DNA of 64,000 nt from Marinobacter sediminum (GTDB lineage Bacteria; Pseudomonadota; Gammaproteobacteria; Pseudomonadales; Oleiphilaceae), in the NCBI RefSeq assembly GCF_016820575.1, contig NZ_JAEMQH010000002.1:310001-374000 (forward strand). Direction: 5' to 3'. Every line of letters begins with the position of its first letter. Position 1 is the stretch's first letter. Shown piece by piece: positions 352 to 35,595 of this stretch. A model generated the notes under the pieces. It was not told the origin of the DNA. It did no database searches and was given only the letters and a program-made list of their open reading frames with translations. The position numbers and the translations under genes are program-made.

Positions 352-1401
352 ATGAAAGATGTTGTTATTGATGGCGTGAAGATCGGGCCGGATCATCCTC
401 CCTACGTTATTGCTGAGTTATCCGCAAACCACAATGGTTCTTTAGAACATGCCTTGGCTACTATAGATGAAGCCAAAAAACGTGGGGCATCTGCGATCAA
501 GCTGCAAACATATACAGCGGATACCATGACCATAGACTCCGATCGCCCAGAGTTTTTGATCAAAGGCGGACCATGGGGTGGCTTTAAGCTATACGATCTC
601 TACAAATGGGCGGAAACGCCGTTCGAATGGCACAAAGCCATGTTCGAGCACGCTCGTAAAATTGGTATTACCGTGTTCTCGACACCGTTTGATGAAACGG
701 CTGTGGATCTGCTCGAGGAGCTTGATGCTCCCGCCTATAAAATTGCTTCTTTTGAAGTAACCGACCTCCCATTGATTGAATACGTAGCCAAAACTGGCAA
801 GCCCATGATTATGTCGACAGGGATGGCTAGTGAAGAGGAAATCGAAGAAGCGGTTGCGACAGCCAGAAACGCAGGTTGTGAGCAGCTGGTTTTGCTTCAC
901 TGCATCAGTAGTTATCCTGCCCCCATGGAGCAGGCAAACATTGCACAGGTTAAAGAGCTTGGGAACCGCTTTCAGGCCATTCCTGGTCTTTCTGACCATA
1001 CCTTGGGCACTACCGCATCTGTAGCAGCGGTTGCTCTCGGAGCTTGTCTGATCGAAAAGCATTTTATTCTTAACCGAGAGGACGGCGGCCCTGATAGCGG
1101 TTTCTCGATAGAACCAGAAGAACTTGAACGTTTATGCGTAGAAACGCGCGAAGCCAAACTCGCCATCGGCAATGTAGGCTATGTCCGCCAGAAAGCTGAG
1201 GAGCAAAACCGGATATTTCGTCGGTCCATATACTACATGCGCGACATGAAGGCTGGTGAGATTATACAAGAAAAGGATATTCGTAGAATTCGGCCGGGAA
1301 TTGGTATCGAGCCCAAACACTCCGCCACGCTTATCGGGAAAACACTAAAGAGTGACGTTACACGCGGTACTCCAACAAGTTGGGAGCAGTTCGATGAGTA
1401 A
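352..1401 (+). CDS. pseI: Pseudaminic acid synthase (NeuB family)
   Basis: Condenses phosphoenolpyruvate with a 2,4-diacylamino-2,4,6-trideoxy hexose to give pseudaminic acid in the cytoplasm. At 349 aa it has the expected length. The N-terminal NeuB TIM barrel carries YVIAELSANHNGS (about residues 18-30), KLQTYT, FSTPFDE, YKIASFE and GLSDHT, followed by IEKHFIL. A C-terminal SAF (antifreeze-like) domain starts near residue 285 (RRSIYYMRD, IRPGIGI). The ELSANHN form and the PEFLI..GPW segment fit PseI better than sialic or legionaminic acid synthases. It follows the formyltransferase by 9 bases and overlaps the next gene by 8, so the three probably form an operon. The PseB, PseC, PseF and PseG genes would lie left of the window. 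Confidence 0.88.
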   Translation: MKDVVIDGVKIGPDHPPYVIAELSANHNGSLEHALATIDEAKKRGASAIKLQTYTADTMTIDSDRPEFLIKGGPWGGFKLYDLYKWAETPFEWHKAMFEHARKIGITVFSTPFDETAVDLLEELDAPAYKIASFEVTDLPLIEYVAKTGKPMIMSTGMASEEEIEEAVATARNAGCEQLVLLHCISSYPAPMEQANIAQVKELGNRFQAIPGLSDHTLGTTASVAAVALGACLIEKHFILNREDGGPDSGFSIEPEELERLCVETREAKLAIGNVGYVRQKAEEQNRIFRRSIYYMRDMKAGEIIQEKDIRRIRPGIGIEPKHSATLIGKTLKSDVTRGTPTSWEQFDE

Positions 1402-23257: not shown

Positions 23258-24145
23258 ATGAAGCATCATGCCTATGGATGCGCTGCTTTGGTCATGTTTT
23301 GTCTGGCTGTTGTGCCGGTTACCCACGCTGAGTTGAAACCCATCTCCGATCAAACCCTCGGTGAGGTTACCGGGCAGGCATTCATGCAGGTCGAGAATCT
23401 TGCCGATGGTGTTCATGACTTCACCCGCATGACATTGGGCATGGACGTGGAAACCCGCGTTAATATCGACGATGTCAAAGTGGGTGAGATAGATGGCGGC
23501 TCCGACTTTGCCGCCACCCACCTGGCGCTGGGCCATATTGCTCGCCAGGACGGTGTGCAATACAACGGCCAGACCTACATGCAAGGCGAGACCGTGCCGT
23601 TCGAAGCCTCAAAACCGTTCATTGAGCTGGCAGAAGACGCCAGCGGGTTGGCAGGTTTTCGGATGGGTTTTGGTCAGGCCCGAGGCTCTGCGTCTTCTTT
23701 AACCTCCAGCCTGAGCGGCAATATTGGCCTCAAACTGCGTGACTCGGCGGGCGTTGTTCACGACGCGGCCCTGTTCGATGCCAGCAATCAGGCAACCAAC
23801 TACCGTGCGACGCAGATTGGCATTGCCGATAGTGCAAACCCGGCTACCTGCAGTGAGTGTGCGTCCCTGAGCAAAGTGCAGTCGTTGTTTGTGGGAACGG
23901 CGCAAGATGATGGCGCAGGTGGCACAGTCACGGGGTTTACCGATGATTTCTTTATCGGATTTCAGCGGGACGACGCGGGCGTTAAATGGCAGAGTCCGGA
24001 CGGTGCCAACGTCATCAACGCCGGAAAAGGCGTCTTCATCAATCTCCCCACCAGTATGACAGTCGACATGAGCCAACTGACCGGCCCTTCAGGTTTGCCC
24101 AGACTGCAGACTCACCAGGCCGATATGGGGACTCAGCTGTTTTAA
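23258..24145 (+). CDS. Secreted DUF6160-like (FilA-like) surface protein
   Basis: A 295-aa protein with a clear signal peptide (about residues 1-24, ending VTHA) followed by LKPISDQTLGEVTGQAFM, a sequence type common at the mature N terminus of DUF6160/FilA-like proteins in Pseudomonas, Acinetobacter and Marinobacter. The rest is rich in Gly, Asp and small residues without membrane segments, and ends in a hydrophobic Phe, as outer-surface proteins often do. One CSEC pair may form a disulphide. Function is not established; some relatives are linked to pili or adhesion. It has its own upstream region with a CRP-like site, and a terminator follows. Confidence 0.6.
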   Translation: MKHHAYGCAALVMFCLAVVPVTHAELKPISDQTLGEVTGQAFMQVENLADGVHDFTRMTLGMDVETRVNIDDVKVGEIDGGSDFAATHLALGHIARQDGVQYNGQTYMQGETVPFEASKPFIELAEDASGLAGFRMGFGQARGSASSLTSSLSGNIGLKLRDSAGVVHDAALFDASNQATNYRATQIGIADSANPATCSECASLSKVQSLFVGTAQDDGAGGTVTGFTDDFFIGFQRDDAGVKWQSPDGANVINAGKGVFINLPTSMTVDMSQLTGPSGLPRLQTHQADMGTQLF

Positions 24146-25672: not shown

Positions 25673-27673
25673 TCAGCGGCGCTTGCAAAAGTAAACGCTC
25701 AGCCCCTGGCCAACCAGGCTCTGGACTTCGCTACCCAGAGCCTCGGCCTGAATCTGCCGCTGCACCGGTTGGGTAGCCAGGCTGTGGCCATCGGCATCCC
25801 GTGCTTTCACCAGTTTCCAGTCCACTTCATTGCTGACCATCGCCATCAGCTGCTTCAGCTGAGCGCCGTCCTGCGGCCGGAACCAGCGATCGCGACAACC
25901 ACCCAGGCTGAAGAAATCGTCTTCCTGAGTCAGTTCCTTCCAATTGGCATCCTGAGGGTTGGCGAGCACCATGCGGCGTAACTGGCGCAGTGCAGTGCGG
26001 GTAGGCTGCAGCCTGTGCTCGGCAATCAGGTTGCGAATGTGGCGGTCGCCCGGCGTCTGCTCTCCAATGGCCGTGTGCATATGCACCACCGCACCGGCCG
26101 AGCTGGCGTCATTTACCAATGCGGCTAGGGACACCTCGGTCATGGCGGGGGAGGGCAGGCGCCCAACCTCAATCCAATGCACCTGATGCCCATCGGCAAT
26201 AAACCGCTGGGCAATGGACCAGGGCCAGAACACAATGTTCTCGATGCCCATGTCGCCGGCCATGCGGGTGCCCTTGGCAACGTTGGCCAGGGATTCGTCC
26301 ACGGCAATCACCTCGACATCACTGAGGTAACGAGCCAGTTCCATGGCGCGCTGGCCAGACTGGGCGCCACACACCAGGATGCGAAGGGTGTCGGGCAGGC
26401 TGTCAGTGGCGATGCCCAGTTCCGATGCCATCACATTCTTCAGGCTATTCTCCGCACGGAACGCTAGTTGTGACCAGGCCGGCCATGCCTGGGCAACATC
26501 CACCTTCTCCATGCAAAGCTCGGCAGCTTTTTCATCAAAATTCTGCTTGATCGCCTCTTCATTGGCACGATCGTAATAACTGGCGGCCATCACCGGCTGC
26601 AGCGCCAGTGGCCAATCGGTCAGGCTCCACTGCCCGAGCTGAACGGCAAAGCTCTGGTGGAACAGGGCGCCGTACATCGCGCTGATGATCAGGGAGCCGA
26701 TCACGCCATCCTGCGGCTCGCCCATCGCCAGTTGGGCCTGGATGCTGTCGTTAATGGTCGCGATCAGGCGTTCTTCATCGTCCTCAGCGGCCATCGCGTA
26801 ACCGGTGCGGTCGGCATACTGCCCAATCGCCAGTGCCAGCTGCTGCAGGTCGTCCCGAAGCTCCACCGTTTGGGCCACTTCCGCAATGATGGCGCGGCGC
26901 AGCATAACCACCAAGTTCTCAACCGCCGGGTTTGACATCAGTGTTTTCTGCAGGCCAAGGATTAACAGCTCATCTTCACTGGCGGCATCCAGGAAGATCT
27001 CCGCGTTCGGGTTATCCAGATCGTACTGCTGGTGCACGATGGCAGCCACAAACCGGCCCAGTTCCTGATGGGGCAGCCCCTCGCGGCGGAGCAGGGCAAT
27101 GGCATCCCGCGCCAGCTCACCGTCGGCGCGCTCCACCTGAAGGTGTTGCGCGCAGCTCAGCAAGCCGCTGTAAACCGAATCCCATTCCGCGCCGGTTTCG
27201 AGCAGTTTGCGGTAGTGCAGGTAAGCGACATCGAACTGGCCCTGCAGACGCTTGGCGTGGGCCACTCCGCAAAAAGCGGCGGCGGATTGCCGGTCGCAAT
27301 CCAGGGCTTCGAGGAAGTGTTGTTCGGCCAGCGCAGGGCGTTCAGATTTTAGAGCCCAGTAACCCAAGTTGGCGTGTTGCTGGGCCTGTCCGGGCTGCGC
27401 TTGCAAGCTGGCACTGAACAGCTGATGGGCTTCATCGAGGCGTCCTTCATCCAATTCAATGCGTCCCAGAAGGCCGAGAGCACCGGCGTTTTCGGGTTCC
27501 AGCTGGAAGGCGTTAGCCAGGTAATCACGGCACTCCTGCCTGGCCCGAAGGCGCTGAAGGTGGCTCAGCCCGTTGCTGTTGGATTCACCATAAGCCAGGT
27601 TGGCCTGCAGCAGGAGGCGGGCCGCCTGCGCCTGATCGGAGCCAGGGTTCTGAATGTGATGCTGTGATTGCAT
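25673..27673 (-). CDS. TPR protein with methyltransferase-like C-terminal domain
   Basis: A 666-aa cytoplasmic protein. Residues about 40-190 form TPR-like repeats (ALGLLGRIELDEGRLDEAHQLF, HANLGYWALKSERPALAEQHF). A long helical middle region is followed by a segment with the look of a Rossmann methyltransferase: LRILVCGAQSGQRAMELARYL, then VEVIAVDES about 20 residues on. The glycine-rich loop is poor (GAQSGQ), so activity is uncertain. The ATG at 27673 has GAGGTG upstream; the longer in-frame start at 27712 lacks one. Similar TPR-methyltransferase proteins are often found near flagellin or Maf genes, and this one lies under 1 kb from fliC, so a role in flagellin modification is possible but unproven. 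Confidence 0.6.
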   Translation of the reverse strand: MQSQHHIQNPGSDQAQAARLLLQANLAYGESNSNGLSHLQRLRARQECRDYLANAFQLEPENAGALGLLGRIELDEGRLDEAHQLFSASLQAQPGQAQQHANLGYWALKSERPALAEQHFLEALDCDRQSAAAFCGVAHAKRLQGQFDVAYLHYRKLLETGAEWDSVYSGLLSCAQHLQVERADGELARDAIALLRREGLPHQELGRFVAAIVHQQYDLDNPNAEIFLDAASEDELLILGLQKTLMSNPAVENLVVMLRRAIIAEVAQTVELRDDLQQLALAIGQYADRTGYAMAAEDDEERLIATINDSIQAQLAMGEPQDGVIGSLIISAMYGALFHQSFAVQLGQWSLTDWPLALQPVMAASYYDRANEEAIKQNFDEKAAELCMEKVDVAQAWPAWSQLAFRAENSLKNVMASELGIATDSLPDTLRILVCGAQSGQRAMELARYLSDVEVIAVDESLANVAKGTRMAGDMGIENIVFWPWSIAQRFIADGHQVHWIEVGRLPSPAMTEVSLAALVNDASSAGAVVHMHTAIGEQTPGDRHIRNLIAEHRLQPTRTALRQLRRMVLANPQDANWKELTQEDDFFSLGGCRDRWFRPQDGAQLKQLMAMVSNEVDWKLVKARDADGHSLATQPVQRQIQAEALGSEVQSLVGQGLSVYFCKRR

Positions 27674-27824
27674 GGGACACCTCGTGATAGTAGCCGCATT
27701 CTGAGGCGGCAAAGGTCTGCAGTTTTTGACGGTTTGCCGTGCTTTGAGAGAGGTATTGCGAAAGGTGTGCCATCTTCACTGGCAATGCTTCGAAATAGAT
27801 TGATGTACTGCTATCTGGGATAGG

Positions 27825-28445: not shown

Positions 28446-29606
28446 TTAGCCCTGCAGTAGTTGCAATACCTGCTGTGGCCGGGCGTTAGCCTGGGCCAGA
28501 ACCGACAGGCCGGCCTGCTGGAGTACCTGAGTGCGGGCCAGCTCGGCGGATTCGGCGGCAAAGTCGGCATCGCGGATGCGGCTGTTGGAGGCTGCGAGGT
28601 TTTCCGCCGTCGTGGCAAGATTTGCGATGGTGGATTCAAAGCGATTTTGAATCGCGCCAAGCTCACTTCTAATCCCGTTGATTGTGGTCAATGCGCTATC
28701 CACCCGGAGGATCGCATCATTTGCACCGTTAACTGAGTCGACAGAGGCCAACTGTAAATTATCACCGGGATCACCAACAGTGGCTGCGGTGTCTGTACCT
28801 GTGGTGTTAAGTGCGTTAGTGCCATTCGTGGTAGAAAGCGCAATGGAGCTCAGCTCTTCCAGAGACTTTATTTCAATCGCAGATCCGTCAGCAGAGACAA
28901 TCGCCGAGGCTCCGTCTAGTTGGCCATTGATGGTCTCCACGACTTCAGCAATATTTGCCTCATCTCCTGTGAAAGTAACTGTTTGAGCGGTCGCTGTCGC
29001 AGGATCTCCAACCGTTACTGAGAGGGTGTCGCCCGCTGCAACGGAGTTAGTGCCAGAGAAATCGACATTCAAGGCTGAGGCTGTCGCTATCGATCCAACG
29101 TCACTCGCACGGGAACCGGAGGTTAGGTTAATGCTAATGGTATCGCCGGCGTTCGCTCCAACCTGAAAAGAGGCTACCCCAAAGGAACCATCTAGGATCT
29201 TCAGTCCGTTGAATGACGTTTGGTTGGAGATGCGATTGATTTCTTCGATTCGTTGTTGCACCTCGTTATCCAATGCCTCGCGATCCGACTGGCTATTGGT
29301 TGCGTTGGCAGATTGAACCGCGAGCTCCCTGATTCGTTGAAGATTTGAAACTACCTCGTCAAGTGCGCCTTCGGTCGTTTGCGCCAAGGAGATACCATCA
29401 TTCGCGTTTCTTTGAGCTACGTTCAGTCCCGAAATCTGTGATTCAAAGCGAGTCGATATCGCTAGCCCCGCAGCATCATCTTTGGCAGAGTTTATTCGAA
29501 GGCCAGAGGATAAGCGTTCCAGTGCTGTGTTGGCATCACTCTGCGATGAGTTAAGGTTTCGCTGGGCGTTCAGCGATGCAATATTGGTATTAATTACCTG
29601 AGGCAT
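28446..29606 (-). CDS. fliC: Flagellin (long form)
   Basis: Filament subunit, 386 aa. The N-terminal D0/D1 region (about residues 1-140) includes [34 protein letters not shown] and [18 protein letters not shown]; the C-terminal D1/D0 (about 300-386) ends [20 protein letters not shown] 150-residue Thr/Ser/Ala-rich variable domain lies in the middle (surface D2/D3), the probable site of O-glycosylation. The start is ATG at 29606 with GAGGAG upstream. It is transcribed away from the Maf gene and carries a sigma-54-type promoter. It is clearly distinct from the shorter flagellin at 32234. Confidence 0.95.
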
Positions 29607-29694
29607 CTCTTTTCTCCTCGATTTATTTTTCCGAACAACTCTCCTGACAGAGAGGGGCAGTGGAGGTCAGGAGCTGTTTACTTGATGGGGACCA

Positions 29695-29710
29695 AGCTAA
29701 TAGCGTGCCA
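29695..29710 (-). promoter_or_regulatory. Sigma-54 promoter of the long flagellin gene
   Basis: Reading the minus strand from 29710: TGGCACG-CTAT-TAGCT. The -24 GG (29709-29708) and -12 GC (29697-29696) have exact spacing; one mismatch to the TTGC part. It lies about 90 bases upstream of the fliC start. The rest of 29607-29974 has no gene. Confidence 0.7.
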
Positions 29711-29974
29711 GACTTAAAAATTGATGGTTAAGATTCTGAAAATTCAGTGAAATATTTGTTTTTTGTTCTCTCGTTTCTGCGCGTAACCAAAGCCAAATTC
29801 CTGCAAAGGGCAGAATTTTGCCGCTTGCCTCGCCGTCGCCTCTAGAGTCCGAACTTTGCCGAATGTTTGCCTAATCTGGTATTACTTGCTCTGTTTTGGC
29901 GTCTTTGGTGTTGCATAAAACTTTTTGCGCGTCATAAGCGCTGAACGTTAGAAACCCGTTAAAAGGAAGGTTTG

Positions 29975-32089
29975 ATGTCTGGAAAAGATGAAGATGTTGC
30001 AGTGCCTTTCATTAGGCGGAAGCAGAAGAACTTGGCGTATTTCCAAAAGTATCGTCCCGAGATTTTCGAATTTTTTGCCAACTTCGAACCCCAGCACTGT
30101 GAACTAAGCATTACTCCCGGTCGGGACGATGTGGACTTGGTGGATTCCGGTACATCCGTTTATCGGCATTTGGCGCGTGAGTACTCCCTCGCAGAAGTCT
30201 CGGATTTCCTCGAGAAAACCCCCACTGAAAAGCCGATAGTCACTGTGGCTCCCCCATTTTTTTTGGAAGCGGGCGAGGGCGCACGTTTTGCTTCCCGCTT
30301 TGTCCGGGAAAGTCTTAGGAAAAGTAGAATCAATCCGTCGACCTTCAAAGGCTACTATCGCGGGGATATTCTACCTTCGGTGGTTTTTCTCGGGTGCGGG
30401 CTTGGGTATCACATTGACAGCCTGACGGCCCGGGCGGATGTCATAGATGTGGTAGTTTTTGAGCCTGATCCTGAGCGCTTCGCCCTAACTCTGTTTACGG
30501 TGGACTGGGAAGAAATCTGCGCTCGCTTTAGGGGAAAGGGGCGGTCGATCTCTTTTTGTATAGCAACCAATCCTTCAGAAGAGAACGTGCGTCGAGTTCT
30601 GGGAGCAAAGGTTGCTGAAATTGTTCCCCTCTATCCTTACTTCAGCTCGTATTACAATCATCTAGTGAATGTTGATTTGTACCGAATTGCCAAAGACCTT
30701 GAGAAGGATCTGCCGGTGGTAGGTGCAAACTGGGGAAATTACGATTTTGAGCTTCGGGGCTTTAGAAACGTCTTCCATAACCTTAAATTGGGCGGCACTT
30801 ACGCAAAGGCTTATGAGCTTCCAGAATCGCATACCCCAGTCGCGGTGGTTGGCAGTGGTCCGTCTTTGGATGCACGGATCGGGGAGCTGAAGGCTAATCG
30901 GGACAAGCTTGTAGTGATGAGCGCCGGTACGGGCTTGCGAGCGCTTCTTAGTCATGGTATCCGACCAGATCTGCACGTTGAACTCGACGCTGACTACATG
31001 ATCTATGAAATGCTCAGCGACATAGATGAGCAGTTCGGGCTACATGACATTACGCTTCTGTGCACGGTAAGCGTGAATCCACTAGTTCCGCCGTTGTTTG
31101 ACAAGTATCGCTTTTACTTCTCCAATGAATACTACGTGCCGGCTTTCTTAGGTTTGAATGAAGATGCTATCCCCGGTTGCTCGCCTACTTGCACCAACGC
31201 AGCAATGGCGCTGGCCTTTGCGTTCGGCTTCAGAAACTTGTTCTTATTTGGGACAGATTACGGCTATCAGGAAAAATCGCAGCACCACTCGCGATTTTCG
31301 ATTTACGGACAAGAATCTCGAACTGAGTTCGCTTCTCGTTTTCGCAAGGAGACTGCCAGAGGCACTGAAGCTCGGCCCAAGTTCGAGACAGAGGGGGTAA
31401 ATGGAACCACAGTTACCACTCAAGGGGATTACTTTACGGCTAAGCGCGCGGTTGAAAATTACCTATCTGACCGTATTGAGCAGCGCCTTAGTTTCTCTGT
31501 GAGGAATTGCTCGGATGGGGCTCTAATCGGGGGAGCGGACTGGATGTCTCCTACAGCGTTCACAGAGTCGCTCGAAAGGGCTTCCGTTGATGAGCGAGAT
31601 CGGCTGATCGAGACTCTCGAAGCAAGTGCAAGGGACATGCCCGACTACGATACAGCGCAAATTTTCGGTGCCGTAGCTCAAGAGGTGTCTGGCACCGCGA
31701 CGGAATTCCTCTCTGTGCTTAGGAACAGTCGGTTGAGAGGGCGCAAGGACCTGATAATAGTTTGTAACCAGATTCGAGATTATTTAAACAGAGTGGGACC
31801 TGGAAGTGGTCGGCGCTCTTCGCCGGTTGTTCAGTTGATGGGCTGGCAAATACTTAAGGGTACTGTTCAACGCTTTCTCCAGACTGGGCTCTGCCACGGA
31901 CTGGCGCACGAGGATAGAGACCTTCAGTCCTTCCTCGATCATTGGAAAACGACCTTTTTGGCTTTCCTGAGGCAGCTGCCTGATCATTTTTCGTCAGTCA
32001 TCCTAAAGGAGGTGCGTCCGATTGATGATCCATGGGTGACGACAAGGTTGATGAACCCTGAGCCAGAGAGGGGTGATGTCGGGTGTTAA
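29975..32089 (+). CDS. maf: Maf-family (DUF115) flagellin glycosyltransferase
   Basis: Motility-associated factor that transfers nonulosonic acids such as pseudaminic acid to flagellin Ser/Thr in the cytoplasm. It has 704 aa. The N-terminal part (about 1-250) has VVFLGCGLGYHIDSL; the central DUF115 domain (about 260-480) has PVAVVGSGPSLDARIGEL, HVELDAD, CSPTCTNAAMALA and LFLFGTDYGYQ. A helical C-terminal part follows. The ATG at 29975 has AAGGAAGG upstream; TTG at 29972 also exists. Its position between two flagellin genes, with pseI at the left of the window, supports a pseudaminic-acid-type donor (inference). Confidence 0.9.
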   Translation: MSGKDEDVAVPFIRRKQKNLAYFQKYRPEIFEFFANFEPQHCELSITPGRDDVDLVDSGTSVYRHLAREYSLAEVSDFLEKTPTEKPIVTVAPPFFLEAGEGARFASRFVRESLRKSRINPSTFKGYYRGDILPSVVFLGCGLGYHIDSLTARADVIDVVVFEPDPERFALTLFTVDWEEICARFRGKGRSISFCIATNPSEENVRRVLGAKVAEIVPLYPYFSSYYNHLVNVDLYRIAKDLEKDLPVVGANWGNYDFELRGFRNVFHNLKLGGTYAKAYELPESHTPVAVVGSGPSLDARIGELKANRDKLVVMSAGTGLRALLSHGIRPDLHVELDADYMIYEMLSDIDEQFGLHDITLLCTVSVNPLVPPLFDKYRFYFSNEYYVPAFLGLNEDAIPGCSPTCTNAAMALAFAFGFRNLFLFGTDYGYQEKSQHHSRFSIYGQESRTEFASRFRKETARGTEARPKFETEGVNGTTVTTQGDYFTAKRAVENYLSDRIEQRLSFSVRNCSDGALIGGADWMSPTAFTESLERASVDERDRLIETLEASARDMPDYDTAQIFGAVAQEVSGTATEFLSVLRNSRLRGRKDLIIVCNQIRDYLNRVGPGSGRRSSPVVQLMGWQILKGTVQRFLQTGLCHGLAHEDRDLQSFLDHWKTTFLAFLRQLPDHFSSVILKEVRPIDDPWVTTRLMNPEPERGDVGC

Positions 32090-32120
32090 CAATCTGTTAC
32101 ACAAAAATATGCAGATTCCC

Positions 32121-32147
32121 TAAAGAGACCCAATCGACTGCCGTTAA
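32121..32147 (+). promoter_or_regulatory. Sigma-28 promoter of the short flagellin gene
   Basis: TAAAGAGA (32121-32128), 11-base spacer, GCCGTTAA (32140-32147), close to the FliA consensus TAAAGTTT-N11-GCCGATAA. It sits 86 bases upstream of the flagellin start, leaving a leader of about 75 bases. Confidence 0.75.
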
Positions 32148-32233
32148 TTGGAATAACAGGGCAGCGTTCCCACGAAAAAAACTGGGGGCTGGCCTTTCTA
32201 AAGTGTCGAAACACAATTTGAAGGGGAAGCATT

Positions 32234-33055
32234 ATGGCTCTCGGAATCAACACTAACGTCGCATCCTTAAGCGCTCAGAACCAGCTGAACAAATCTCAGT
32301 CTTTGAACGATCAGGCTCTTGAGCGTCTGTCATCCGGTCTTCGGATTAACTCTGCAAAAGACGACGCAGCAGGTCTGGCTATTTCCACCCGCTTCGACAC
32401 TCAGATTCGTGGTCTGAACGTGGCTCAGCGTAACGCAAACGATGGCATTTCCATGGTTCAGACCGCTGAAGGCGGTCTGGATGAGACGGTGCAGAACCTC
32501 CAGCGTATTCGTGAGCTGGCTGTTCAGGCGGCAAACGGTTCCAACTCTGACGATGACCGTGCTCTGCTGCAGGCTGAAGTTGATCAGCGTGTCTCAGAAA
32601 TCACCCGAATTGCTAGCGATACCCAGTTCAATGGTCAGGCTGTTCTGGGAGGCTCCCTCTCAACTGTGAACTTCCAGGTTGGTGCAAACGCTGGTCAGAC
32701 AATTGCGGTAGATTTCGATGCAACCATGAGCGCGGCTGGTCTGGGTATCAGTGCTGTTTCTGTATCTTCTGCTGGTGGCGCGAGCGCGGCGTTGGCTACT
32801 ATCGACGGCGCGCTCTCTGAAGTAAACTCCTTCCGCGCAGACCTTGGTGCGGTGCAGAACCGCTTCGAGAGCACCATCAACAACCTGGGCACCAACATCG
32901 AGAACCTGAGCGCCTCCAACAGCCGTATCGTTGATGCAGACTTCGCTGCCGAAACTGCAAAGCTAGCTAAGGCTAACGTTCTGCAGCAGGCGGGCATCTC
33001 GGTCCTTGCTCAGGCTAACGCGCGCCCGAACCAGGTACTGTCCCTCCTCCAGTAA
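32234..33055 (+). CDS. fliC: Flagellin (short form)
   Basis: Second flagellin, 273 aa, almost only the D0/D1 core. The N terminus has [36 protein letters not shown] and NANDGISMVQTAEGGLDE; the C terminus has [25 protein letters not shown]. The variable domain is reduced to about 50 residues, so the filament surface would be smooth and thin compared with the 386-aa flagellin. Codon use is strongly biased to common codons, as for a highly expressed gene. It has GGGGAAG upstream and a good sigma-28 promoter, so it may be the major subunit. It is followed by flaG, fliD and fliS. Confidence 0.95.
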   Translation: MALGINTNVASLSAQNQLNKSQSLNDQALERLSSGLRINSAKDDAAGLAISTRFDTQIRGLNVAQRNANDGISMVQTAEGGLDETVQNLQRIRELAVQAANGSNSDDDRALLQAEVDQRVSEITRIASDTQFNGQAVLGGSLSTVNFQVGANAGQTIAVDFDATMSAAGLGISAVSVSSAGGASAALATIDGALSEVNSFRADLGAVQNRFESTINNLGTNIENLSASNSRIVDADFAAETAKLAKANVLQQAGISVLAQANARPNQVLSLLQ

Positions 33056-33130
33056 GCGGATAATCGGAAGCTAACCGGTCCTTCAACTCGAAGTGCCGGA
33101 TAGCTCCATTACAGGACGGCGAGGTGGATC

Positions 33131-33568
33131 ATGAATGGCGTAAACCTGAATAGCCCGGATTTGAAGCTGGTTCGCACCAGTGAGCAAGCTCCGGCTCGGG
33201 CGTCGGTATCACCTCGAGCAGATGGCAGGAATGCCTCCGCTCAAGAAACTGTTCCGGCCGCGAGCCAAGCTCAGGCTGTAGTGGCAGCCGGCGAAGCACG
33301 ACCGGTGCAGTCACAGTCAGAGAAGAACGCTCTGACTGAGGAGAAAACAGATGTGGGAAGTGCAGTAACCCAGCTCAACAACTATGTTCAGAGCGTGCAG
33401 AGAGATTTACGCTTTGAAATCGATAAAGAACTGGGAAAGACCATTGTTTCTGTTGTTGATCAGGAAACGCAAAAGGTGATTCGACAGATTCCTGACGACG
33501 TTGCGTTGAAGCTGGCAGAAAATTTGCAGCAGGAGGAACCGTTGACGTTGTTTGATTTGAAAGTGTGA
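33131..33568 (+). CDS. flaG: FlaG-family protein
   Basis: A 145-aa protein. The N-terminal half is a variable Ala/Ser/Glu-rich region; the conserved FlaG part (about residues 75-145) has LNNYVQSVQRDLRFEIDKELGKTIV, VVDQETQKVIRQIP and a C-terminal LTLFDLKV. FlaG affects filament length in several gammaproteobacteria; the exact function is not settled. It lies between flagellin and fliD and is followed by a hairpin terminator. Confidence 0.9.
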   Translation: MNGVNLNSPDLKLVRTSEQAPARASVSPRADGRNASAQETVPAASQAQAVVAAGEARPVQSQSEKNALTEEKTDVGSAVTQLNNYVQSVQRDLRFEIDKELGKTIVSVVDQETQKVIRQIPDDVALKLAENLQQEEPLTLFDLKV

Positions 33569-33606
33569 GCCGGAAACGGTCATTGGTCTCTGAAGTGCTT
33601 CGTTAG

Positions 33607-33636
33607 CGCCGCTGCCTCCGGGTAGCGGCGTTCTCG
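33607..33636 (+). terminator. Hairpin terminator after flaG
   Basis: CGCCGCTGCC (33607-33616) and GGTAGCGGCG (33621-33630) around a TCCG tetraloop, followed by TTCTCGGTTT. It ends the flagellin-flaG unit before the fliD promoter. Confidence 0.65.
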
Positions 33637-33692
33637 GTTTATCTGACGTTGCACTCGCTTACAAAATGTAACCGAAAGGCGGAGTTTGGAGG

Positions 33693-33719
33693 CAAAGTTT
33701 TGCCGCCTCTTGCCGATAT
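33693..33719 (+). promoter_or_regulatory. Sigma-28 promoter of fliD
   Basis: CAAAGTTT (33693-33700), 11-base spacer, GCCGATAT (33712-33719): 7 of 8 matches in each half to the FliA consensus. It sits 37 bases upstream of the fliD start. Confidence 0.8.
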
Positions 33720-33756
33720 ATTAGACAGTAAACGCAGGCCTTGTAGGAGGCTCGGT

Positions 33757-35169
33757 ATGGCAGGAATTTCATCGCTAGGTGCTGGCTCCGGAATCTTTAG
33801 TTCCGATCTCGTTGATCAACTGGTTAACGCAGAGCGCAAGCCGGCAGAGCTTCGTTTGGATCGGAGAGAAAGCGAAGCCAAAACCAAAATATCAGCGTTT
33901 GGGGCGCTTAAAAGTGCGCTTGAAGCCTTGCAGAAGCCACTGGACACCCTGGCATCATCGGACGGGCTCAAGGCGCTGGCGGCCAGCTCGTCTAATGAGT
34001 CGGTGGCCAAAGTGAATGTTGATCCTTCGACTGCGAACCGTGGTTCCTACAGTGTGAACGTGACCCAATTGGCACAGGCCCAGTCGTTGGCTTCCGGTTC
34101 CTTCGCGGATACCGACACGACTACCGTCGGTACTGGCACCCTCACGTTTACGGTCAATGGCGTCAATACAGATGTGACTGTGGATGGAAGCAATAACACG
34201 CTGCAAGGGCTTGCAGATTCGATCAATGATGCGAACGCTGGATTATCGGCAGGCATTGTCGATACGGGGAGTGGGTACCGACTGGTCCTTTCTTCTGATG
34301 AAAGCGGTCTGGATAACGCGATTCAAGTCTCGGTGGCTGACGATGATGGAAATAGCACCGATGCATCCGGGCTGTCCCAGTTTGCTTTTGATGGCACCAC
34401 ATTGAATTTGACAGAAACGGTCGCAGCCAAGGATGCATTGTTGGAAGTAAATGGCATATCTGTCAGTCGGTCATCCAACACGGTGGAGGATGTGGTCGAG
34501 GGAGTAAGGTTTGATGTGCAATCCACCGGCAGCACCACTGTAAAAGTTGAGCGGGATCCCGATGAAGTTGCGGGGAGGGTTCAAGAGTTTGTTGACAAAT
34601 TCAACGCACTGCAAGATGTCATCGACAAGGCGTCCGGATACAACGCTGAGTCTGGGGTTGGAGGTGTCCTTTCCGGTGACTCAACCGTAAGAAACATGGA
34701 AAGGGACCTGCGTACCGGCTTAACTACGGTTCCGACTGGCAGAGAAAACAGCTCCGTTCGAACTCTCGCGGATCTGGGTATTAAAACAGTACCAAGTACG
34801 GGGAAACTCGAATTTGATGCCGAGGTGTTTAAAGTAAAGCTCGGGGAAGATCCCCAGGCGGTCACGGCGCTATTTTCGGAGCAGGGCGGCGTTGACGGAA
34901 TCGCTGGAAAAATCGATACGACCATTGAGAGCTACTTAGCCAGCGACGGCGCAATTTCCGGGCGCACAGGCGGACTTAATACTGCGCTTGAGGAAATACA
35001 GGATCAACGAAATCGTCTCGAACTTCGGATGGAGACATACAGGGAGCGTCTAGTGTCGCAGTTTTCAGCAGCCGACTCACTTATTTCTCAGCTCAATAGC
35101 ACGGGCAATTACATCAGTCAGCAATTGGCCGCCATGGCACCACAGCAATCCAATGGCAATCAGCAGTAA
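33757..35169 (+). CDS. fliD: Flagellar filament cap protein
   Basis: Cap protein needed for flagellin insertion at the filament tip, 470 aa. The N-terminal FliD_N domain (about residues 1-110) starts MAGISSLGAGSGIFSSDLVDQLV and includes KISAFGALKSAL; the central part is Thr/Ser/Asp-rich; the FliD_C domain (about 230-460) has LEVNGISVSRSSNTVEDVVEG and RVQEFVDKFNALQDVI. The C-terminal helix ends with QFSAADSLISQLNSTGNYISQQLA, the heptad-rich tail bound by export chaperones. The ATG at 33757 has TAGGAGG upstream; the longer frame from 33649 would read through the sigma-28 promoter. Confidence 0.95.
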   Translation: MAGISSLGAGSGIFSSDLVDQLVNAERKPAELRLDRRESEAKTKISAFGALKSALEALQKPLDTLASSDGLKALAASSSNESVAKVNVDPSTANRGSYSVNVTQLAQAQSLASGSFADTDTTTVGTGTLTFTVNGVNTDVTVDGSNNTLQGLADSINDANAGLSAGIVDTGSGYRLVLSSDESGLDNAIQVSVADDDGNSTDASGLSQFAFDGTTLNLTETVAAKDALLEVNGISVSRSSNTVEDVVEGVRFDVQSTGSTTVKVERDPDEVAGRVQEFVDKFNALQDVIDKASGYNAESGVGGVLSGDSTVRNMERDLRTGLTTVPTGRENSSVRTLADLGIKTVPSTGKLEFDAEVFKVKLGEDPQAVTALFSEQGGVDGIAGKIDTTIESYLASDGAISGRTGGLNTALEEIQDQRNRLELRMETYRERLVSQFSAADSLISQLNSTGNYISQQLAAMAPQQSNGNQQ

Positions 35170-35196
35170 GCGGCGCTGAACTCAAAGGAGTTACCA

Positions 35197-35595
35197 ATGA
35201 ACGGTCTTCAGCAATACCAGCGGATTAATACGCAGACCAGCATTACCGATGCTGACCCACACAAGCTTATCCAACTGCTTTATCAAGGGGCTCTTGAGCG
35301 CATCAACATGGCAAAAGCCAAGCTTCAGGCCAAGGATTACGATGGCAAGGGCAAGCTGATAATGAAGGCGTTAGACATCGTTGGAGCGCTTCGCGGCTAT
35401 CTTGATAGAGAGAGGGGGGGGGAGCTTTCGGAGCGCCTCGATGCACTATATGAGTATATGGAACGTGCTTTGTGGGAAGCCAACGCGAGAAATGATATAG
35501 AACGACTCGATGAAGTGGCGGGGTTGCTTCGCTCTATCAAAGAAGGCTGGGACGGCATCCGCGAAGAAGCAGTCTCCCAGCGGCACGTAGGTTGA
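35197..35595 (+). CDS. fliS: Flagellin export chaperone FliS
   Basis: A small cytosolic four-helix chaperone, 132 aa, that holds flagellin until export. Motifs are YQRINTQTSITDADPHKLIQLLYQGALERI at the N terminus and ALDIVGALRGYLDRERGGELSERLDALYEYM in the middle. It follows fliD by 27 bases. The gene contains a run of nine G at 35414-35422, within codons for Arg-Gly-Gly-Glu. A one-base slip there would shift the frame at about residue 74 and remove the last helices, making this a possible phase-variable site. Confidence 0.92.
   Translation: MNGLQQYQRINTQTSITDADPHKLIQLLYQGALERINMAKAKLQAKDYDGKGKLIMKALDIVGALRGYLDRERGGELSERLDALYEYMERALWEANARNDIERLDEVAGLLRSIKEGWDGIREEAVSQRHVG

Follow-up and report, generated by a model that had tools for sequence, protein, structure and literature searches.

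We analysed a 64,000-nucleotide stretch of a Marinobacter genome (C4:310001-374000 of 3.72 Mb, 99.9% complete; hereafter the window) that carries a gene for a Maf flagellin glycosyltransferase between two flagellin genes, fla1 and fla2. We consider it probable, at roughly 0.6, that this locus encodes a filament-assembly module in which Fla1 is made early and forms a proximal segment, Fla2 is made late and forms the remainder of the filament, and Maf modifies at least Fla2. The evidence comes from the promoters of the two flagellin genes throughout the genus, from the association of Maf with a reduced fla2, and from the form of the FliD cap.

Two flagellin genes with different promoter types

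Pfam profile matches gave the gene order TPR gene (minus strand), brnT-brnA (plus), fla1 (minus), maf (plus), fla2 (plus), flaG, fliD and fliS. An earlier reading of the window's sequence (the original prediction) had placed Maf between a 386-amino-acid (aa) flagellin and a 273-aa core-only flagellin, and coordinates and Pfam matches bore this out. The features are as follows.

28446..29606, minus strand: fla1, a flagellin of 386 aa in which an outer domain separates the conserved N and C helical regions (Pfam Flagellin_N and Flagellin_C)
29710-29695, minus strand: sigma-54-type promoter of fla1, TGGCACGCTATTAGCT (pattern match 90 bp 5' of the fla1 ATG)
29809..29823, minus strand: CGGCAA element, CGGCAAAATTCTGCC, a possible enhancer site of a sigma-54 activator (conserved 5' of fla1)
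29972..32089, plus strand: Maf flagellin glycosyltransferase, 705 aa as listed (PF20157, 3.6e-30; PF01973, 6.9e-33)
32121-32147, plus strand: sigma-28-type promoter of fla2, TAAA-N15-GCCGTTAA (pattern match 86 bp 5' of the fla2 ATG)
32234..33055, plus strand: fla2, a 273-aa core-only flagellin (Pfam Flagellin_N and Flagellin_C)
33131..33568, plus strand: FlaG (PF03646)
33757..35169, plus strand: FliD cap, 470-aa short form (PF02465, PF07195; without a block of ~190 residues in a four-sequence alignment)
35197..35595, plus strand: FliS flagellin chaperone (PF02561)
25673..27712, minus strand, likely ATG at 27673: TPR (tetratricopeptide repeat) protein with a divergent, possibly methyltransferase-like C-terminal half (TPR_19, 8.9e-6)
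27757..27772, minus strand: sigma-54-type site of the TPR gene, TGGCACACCTTTCGCA (85 bp 5' of its likely ATG)
352..1401, plus strand: PseI pseudaminic acid synthase (TIGR03586, 499.7 bits)

Fla1 and Fla2 are 65% identical across the first 171 residues and 59% identical across 133 C-terminal positions, and what sets Fla1 apart is its outer domain. A structure model of Fla1 (predicted local distance difference test score, pLDDT, of 62.8; low-to-moderate confidence, gross secondary structure only) has a strand-rich middle flanked by long helices. A 276-aa flagellin of known structure, 6t17, aligned with Fla2 along nearly the whole length of the latter. The genome holds three Flagellin_N matches in total: fla1, fla2 and a weaker third in a 409-aa frame, which is probably FlgL, judged by length and score. 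Elsewhere in the genus, two copies of fla2 were seen in single genomes at L030 (G005; 376 and 380 aa) and L177 (G130; 614 and 614 aa), and L062 (G020:C7) has a second, distant flagellin-fliD-fliS set (46%, 28% and 31%), probably belonging to another flagellar system.

We surveyed 124 genomes of the genus by flagellin start patterns and read 107 of them at the locus; 17 had neither start pattern, and no flagellin region was read in these. Promoters were sought up to 300 bp upstream of 103 fla1 and 105 fla2 genes using a sigma-54 pattern (TGGCAY-N7-GC) and a sigma-28 pattern (T[AC]AA-N15-G[CT]CG[AT][TA]A), both fixed on the first 36 genomes and afterwards applied to all 107. The sigma-54-type pattern was found 5' of fla1 in 103/103 genomes and 5' of fla2 in 3/105, and the sigma-28-type pattern 5' of fla2 in 105/105 and 5' of fla1 in 1/103, so that the promoter types assigned in the original prediction were right. 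When both strands of the window were scanned, the sigma-28 pattern matched once, at fla2; a looser sigma-54 pattern gave 11 matches in all. Because the fla1 and fla2 sites are kept genus-wide at a nearly fixed distance, they are beyond chance.

The CGGCAA element was present 5' of fla1 in 101/101 genomes (mean of 6.7 in shuffled sequence), the count being limited to the 101 of 103 fla1 genes with at least 250 bp upstream. By Maf class, as defined below, this was 19/19 with Maf on the fla2 side, 8/8 with Maf on the fla1 side and 74/74 without Maf. Before fla2, the element was found on that strand in 0/22 genomes with fla2-side Maf, and the reverse, TTGCCG, in 4/22 (shuffled, 1.2). The element may be what is called an 'FlrC-type box'. 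A text search of the literature gave no usable support for CGGCAA as an activator site, and the excerpt of PMC6504787 does not contain it (papers cited here by PMC number, and the systems described from them, are represented by excerpts).

Both fliA and rpoN are encoded in the genome. In the FlaA-FlaB filament of Shewanella putrefaciens/S. oneidensis, an RpoN-dependent, FliA-independent flagellin comes first and a FliA-dependent one second, with FlaA basal and FlaB distal in the filament (PMC6299084). Together, the conserved promoters, the CGGCAA element, the presence of fliA and rpoN and the experimental precedent of S. putrefaciens (PMC6299084) make two expression stages for fla1 and fla2, as originally predicted, well supported. 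A filament built in segments would follow from such stages. Under the mechanism that we propose, sigma-54 would direct the expression of Fla1 and the TPR protein during hook building. On completion of the hook FlgM would leave, and FliA would then direct expression of Fla2 from the sigma-28 promoter. Fla1, going in first, would form a proximal base segment of subunits bearing the outer domain, and Fla2 would form the rest of the filament, the shaft, lying directly beneath the FliD cap through most of its growth. Before export, while flagellin is still in the cytoplasm, its Ser/Thr residues would receive a pseudaminic-acid-type sugar from Maf, and Fla2 at least would be modified in this way. 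We infer the timing and the segment order by analogy with Shewanella. Up to 260 bp upstream of maf in the 31 Maf genomes, no sigma-54, sigma-28-like or loose sigma-70 match was found, a weak negative since the starts were chosen by rule and several are doubtful.

Outside the genus, both promoter patterns were present at only one of 11 loci scanned, L086, an Oleiphilus metagenome-assembled genome with the order TPR-fla1-maf-fla2-flaG-fliD-fliS. Several of these loci had neither pattern, and at L187 (G042) a divergent pair has the sigma-28 pattern without the sigma-54 pattern. The two-promoter arrangement is a genus-wide rule and is not general outside the genus.

The listed start of the TPR gene lies 734 bp from the end of fla1. 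A strong match to the gene was found in 23 of 25 genus genomes searched, the exceptions being G013 and the flagellin-less G002. Its promoter was counted in 66 genomes in which the sequence that we read around the locus includes the TPR gene (11 genes were short or cut and one start was unrecognised); genomes that carry it at another position, for example G001, G004 and G020, lie outside this count. A sigma-54-type site of its own was found 79-90 bp before the gene start in 38 of the 66 (shuffled mean, 0.2). These 38 genes lie 169-3182 bp from the end of fla1, and the other 28 lie at 22-112 bp, with one at 204 bp. Transcription of the TPR gene thus probably starts at its own sigma-54 site in some genomes and is shared with fla1 in others, and these sites, or this closeness, would associate the gene with the early flagellin and not with Maf. 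The association has an exception in G004, which keeps the TPR gene without fla1. The original prediction had a TPR/methyltransferase-like gene less than 1 kb away; the distance and the repeats were confirmed, and the methyltransferase likeness came only through an Oleiphilus relative (28% identical), in which PF13847 (1.3e-7) matched the region corresponding to the C-terminal half. No methyltransferase family matched the C-terminal part of the window protein itself up to an E-value of 10, and its structure model has a pLDDT of 58.1, with the C-terminal half largely below 50. Between the TPR gene and fla1 lies a BrnT-BrnA toxin-antitoxin pair (PF04365, PF14384; 27865-28378, plus strand), and BrnT relatives are also found near the flagellin locus in L043, L047 and L052. 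A DUF6160 protein (PF19657, barely above the cut-off) is encoded nearby at 23258-24145 (plus strand).

Maf, the late flagellin and the FliD cap

The window Maf has both the Maf N-terminal domain and the MptE-like domain, with PF20157 and PF01973 above their curated cut-offs, and it is the only PF01973 match in the genome. The ATG at 29975 (704 aa) was judged by eye to be a likelier start than the TTG at 29972. The gene was filed as Maf and not as PseD because it scored 40.4 bits with the PseD model (NCBIfam NF050051), below the cut-off of 670. Its closest relatives among named genomes were the Mafs of Marinobacter iranensis (78%) and M. litoralis Sw-45 (77%), in a comparison from which the window genome's own records were possibly excluded.

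Maf_flag10_N was detected in 31 of the 124 genomes. Among the 105 genomes with fla2, Maf lies on the fla2 side in 23, on the fla1 side in eight and is absent from 74. The 23 comprise 18 in which Maf and both flagellins share a contig, with Maf in the middle, four that lack fla1 and one, G117, assigned to this class by default, with Maf and fla2 on separate contigs. Fla2 was 273-400 aa long in 23/23 genomes with fla2-side Maf, compared to 471-493 aa in 8/8 with fla1-side Maf. A fla2 of 400 aa or less was found in 12/74 Maf-less genomes, or 12/82 of all those without fla2-side Maf. Relatedness was corrected for using quick trees of the TPR gene covering 70 of the 107 genomes: fla2-side Maf and reduced fla2 agreed in 6.9 of 10 pairs, with 0 opposite and 3.1 showing no difference (median p 0.016). 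The fla1-side Mafs (L034, L042, L055, L126, L131, L144, L157 and L183) are a second group, 33-37% identical to the window Maf and always accompanied by a long fla2. Four genomes of 99-100% completeness (G004, G013, G031 and G079) have fla2-side Maf and a short fla2 but no fla1; each has only two Flagellin_N matches, one to fla2 and a weaker one to an FlgL-like protein. Maf state changed twice on a tree built from the 25 short fla2 cores but six times on the TPR-gene tree, which covers 17 of the same genomes. This difference suggests that Maf travels together with the fla2 allele.

Among genomes in which a single contig carries both flagellins, 31 have a fla1-fla2 gap wider than 1 kb. This gap contained Maf in 18, GT2-type glycosyltransferase islands in eight and no recognised glycosylation gene in five; seven of the eight GT2-type islands also carry DegT-type aminotransferase and WbqC-like genes (gap gene families were checked for L037, L155, L163 and partly L129). 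All matched gap genes were oriented the same way as fla2. Fla2 was 490-497 aa long beside GT2-type islands and 273-400 aa beside Maf. Of the five unmatched gaps, L154 has metabolic genes, an aldehyde dehydrogenase and an enoyl-CoA hydratase, and in L040, L122, L165 and L179 (gaps of 1.3-7.3 kb) no gene was matched by the glycosylation queries. In 26/31 wide gaps, then, sugar and glycosyltransferase genes stand beside a flagellin gene and vary among relatives, in the manner of a glycosylation island. Judged by gene content, glycosylation genes in this gap are exchangeable, and the gap is a hotspot for them. The window gap holds Maf alone, with the Pse genes 28 kb away.

FliD was compared in 102 genomes. 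It was 456-470 aa long in 25/25 genomes whose fla2 is core-only and reached 630 aa or more in 74/77 others; the three exceptions are G139, where the region is cut, and G035 and G036, where frames are split. At the corresponding loci, L060 (G035) and L061 (G036), the split frames are those of FliD, and in L060 also those of fla1 and maf, through either decay or sequencing error. When two FliD sequences of each form were aligned, essentially one block of ~190 residues accounted for the difference. On the TPR-gene tree, fla2 switched to or from the short state at least 11 times, and the FliD form was concordant in 10/10 independent pairs (p 0.002). G082, G095 and G144 combine a fla1 of ~500 aa with a core-only fla2 and a short FliD, and G136 combines a 378-aa fla1 and a 391-aa fla2 with a long FliD. 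No core-only fla1 was found among the intact genes, the shortest being 377 aa; of three shorter values, one came from a split gene and the others from genes that lie at the end of a contig. Since the cap form follows fla2, these comparisons suggest that Fla2 is the subunit that the FliD cap mostly meets.

Target of Maf and alternative readings

The pseudaminic-acid pathway is complete in this genome: PseB, PseC, PseF, PseG and PseH are encoded directly upstream of the window and PseI within it, all above NCBIfam cut-offs and ~28 kb upstream of the flagellin locus. In a sample of 37 genus genomes, a NeuB/PseI-family synthase was present in 13/13 Maf genomes compared to 6/24 Maf-less ones (p 1e-5, uncorrected for relatedness), and a match above the strict PseI cut-off in 10/13 compared to 2/24. 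Nonulosonate genes also occur inside the fla1-fla2 gap, where G111 has legionaminate-type genes beside maf (by families), G121 has their relatives (by BLAST) and G073 has a NeuB-like gene.

That Maf goes with a reduced fla2, and that four genomes have Maf but no fla1, both favour the core-only flagellin as a target. The two-domain flagellins of S. oneidensis carry O-linked sites at T/S106, S143, S173, S180 and S185 (PMC11839096), and in S. putrefaciens neither flagellin reaches its modified mass without Maf-1 and PseG, FlaA presumably being the more modified (PMC6299084). A core-only flagellin is therefore a normal target of such systems, given that those of Shewanella are modified. Core-only Fla2 is thus the better-supported target of Maf, and would be at least one of its targets. 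We infer the identity of the sugar, the residues modified, any modification of Fla1 and any difference between segments. As a side observation, residues 143 and 173 of window Fla2 are Ser, as at two of the sites reported for S. oneidensis; this is a match by residue number and not by alignment.

There is about an even chance that Maf glycosylates both flagellins alike, in which case the segments would differ in protein and not in sugar, as in Shewanella. This is compatible with the proposed module, is in line with the shared dependence of the S. putrefaciens flagellins on Maf-1 and PseG, and would agree with the presence of Maf on the fla1 side in eight genomes. It is less readily squared with the four Maf genomes that have no fla1 and with a fla1 Ser/Thr content that is not raised with Maf, although dual targeting is still compatible with both.

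In Vibrio cholerae the sigma-54-dependent FlaA is the major flagellin (PMC7064773, PMC6504787), and by this example Fla1 could be the major subunit and Fla2 minor and late. We regard this as unlikely, as the FliD form follows fla2 and fla2 is the sole flagellin gene in four genomes, whereas fla1 without fla2 was found only in G033 and G115, on contigs of 4.9 and 6.6 kb.

The original prediction took a Ser/Thr-rich surface domain, present only in the longer flagellin, as its cue for glycosylation, in which case mainly Fla1 would be modified, on its outer domain. Fla2 does lack the outer domain, and by plain count there are more Ser/Thr residues in the fla1 middle than in the short middle of fla2 (39 vs 10), but in proportion the two middles are nearly alike (24.5% vs 21.7%). 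Moreover, the Ser/Thr fraction of the fla1 middle averaged 0.219 where Maf is present (26 genomes) and 0.234 where it is absent (73 genomes), if anything lower with Maf (p 0.02), and Ser/Thr richness was rejected as a sign of fla1 glycosylation. Four Maf genomes have no fla1 to modify, and in the 23/23 genomes where fla2-side Maf goes with a reduced fla2, fla1 is 386-405 aa, 491-499 aa, split or absent. Modification mainly of Fla1 is hence very improbable. That Maf merely occupies a permissive insertion site and is unrelated to the fate of the flagellins is the least credible reading: some gaps do hold unrelated genes, as in L154, and 5/31 wide gaps lack a recognised glycosylation gene, but 26/31 hold Maf or GT2-type islands with all matched genes oriented as fla2, and Maf state changes less often on the fla2-core tree than on the TPR-gene tree.

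Several observations weigh against the module as we propose it, with an early Fla1 base, a late Fla2 shaft and Maf acting on at least Fla2. Promoter class alone gives neither abundance nor order, because the sigma-54 flagellin of V. cholerae is the major one. The middle of core-only fla2 has a Ser/Thr fraction of 0.233 in 16 genomes with Maf compared to 0.183 in nine without (p 0.003), an excess that is not significant on independent pairs. Those nine short-fla2 genomes also show that a short fla2 does not need Maf. The Mafs of G031 and G079 are of the same kind (77% to that of the window), so that the four fla1-less genomes may not all be independent. Fla1 length tracks the FliD form too, more loosely (7.5 pairs the same, 0 opposite, 2.5 with no difference). 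Finally, the Pse genes are embedded in a polysaccharide cluster and may serve that cluster instead.

Comparison with known flagellar systems

There is precedent for flagellins under two promoter classes, for sugar on core-only flagellins and for glycosylation islands next to flagellin genes. The arrangement resembles Shewanella FlaA-FlaB in having, by sequence pattern, one RpoN-type and one FliA-type flagellin promoter, and S. putrefaciens in that flagellins of ~28.5 kDa are modified there via Maf-1 and PseG (PMC6299084). In contrast, the Shewanella flagellins are described as similar in size (89% identical in S. oneidensis) with flaA upstream of flaB, whereas the Marinobacter genes form a divergent pair, 65%/59% identical in their shared parts, with an outer domain in one and Maf between them. 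V. cholerae has the same split of promoters within one filament, between FlaA (FlrC, sigma-54) and the other flagellins (sigma-28; PMC6504787). There, however, the sigma-54 flagellin is the major one, and the excerpted descriptions contain no such Maf module (PMC6504787, PMC7064773). Likewise, the excerpted account of Aeromonas caviae Maf1 describes no size-split flagellin pair.

As in the flagellin glycosylation islands of Enterobacteriaceae, where horizontally acquired sugar and glycosyltransferase genes, mostly GT2, lie beside flagellin (PMC4875605), the Marinobacter gap holds exchangeable genes. Unlike them, its island lies between two flagellins of different promoter class, and the kind of island tracks the form of the sigma-28 flagellin. 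Pseudomonas aeruginosa has a glycosylation island, and its flagellin type is inherited jointly with the FliD type. The flagellins of that species are of a- and b-type (PMC8036289). An early flagellin with an outer domain, combined genus-wide with a variable late flagellin, sugar genes in the gap and a matching cap, was not found in the excerpts of open-licence literature searched; we do not claim its absence from print.

A further and tentative possibility, which we consider less likely than not, is that the filament is the product of two evolutionary modules. One would be a conserved sigma-54 base, comprising fla1 with its outer domain and the TPR/methyltransferase-like protein. The other, a sigma-28 shaft, would be open to exchange and would comprise the glycosylation genes, fla2, flaG and a FliD whose additional block goes with the form of fla2. 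Strains like the present one would then have a protein-clad base and a sugar-clad core-only shaft. If this were true, sugar would stand in for the outer domain that was lost, over the greater part of the filament. An intact early flagellin that is never core-only, a late one that sometimes is, and a cap whose form matches the late one amount to a natural experiment on outer domains, sugars and caps, and the coupling of FliD to fla2 is open to direct test by allele exchange between strains.

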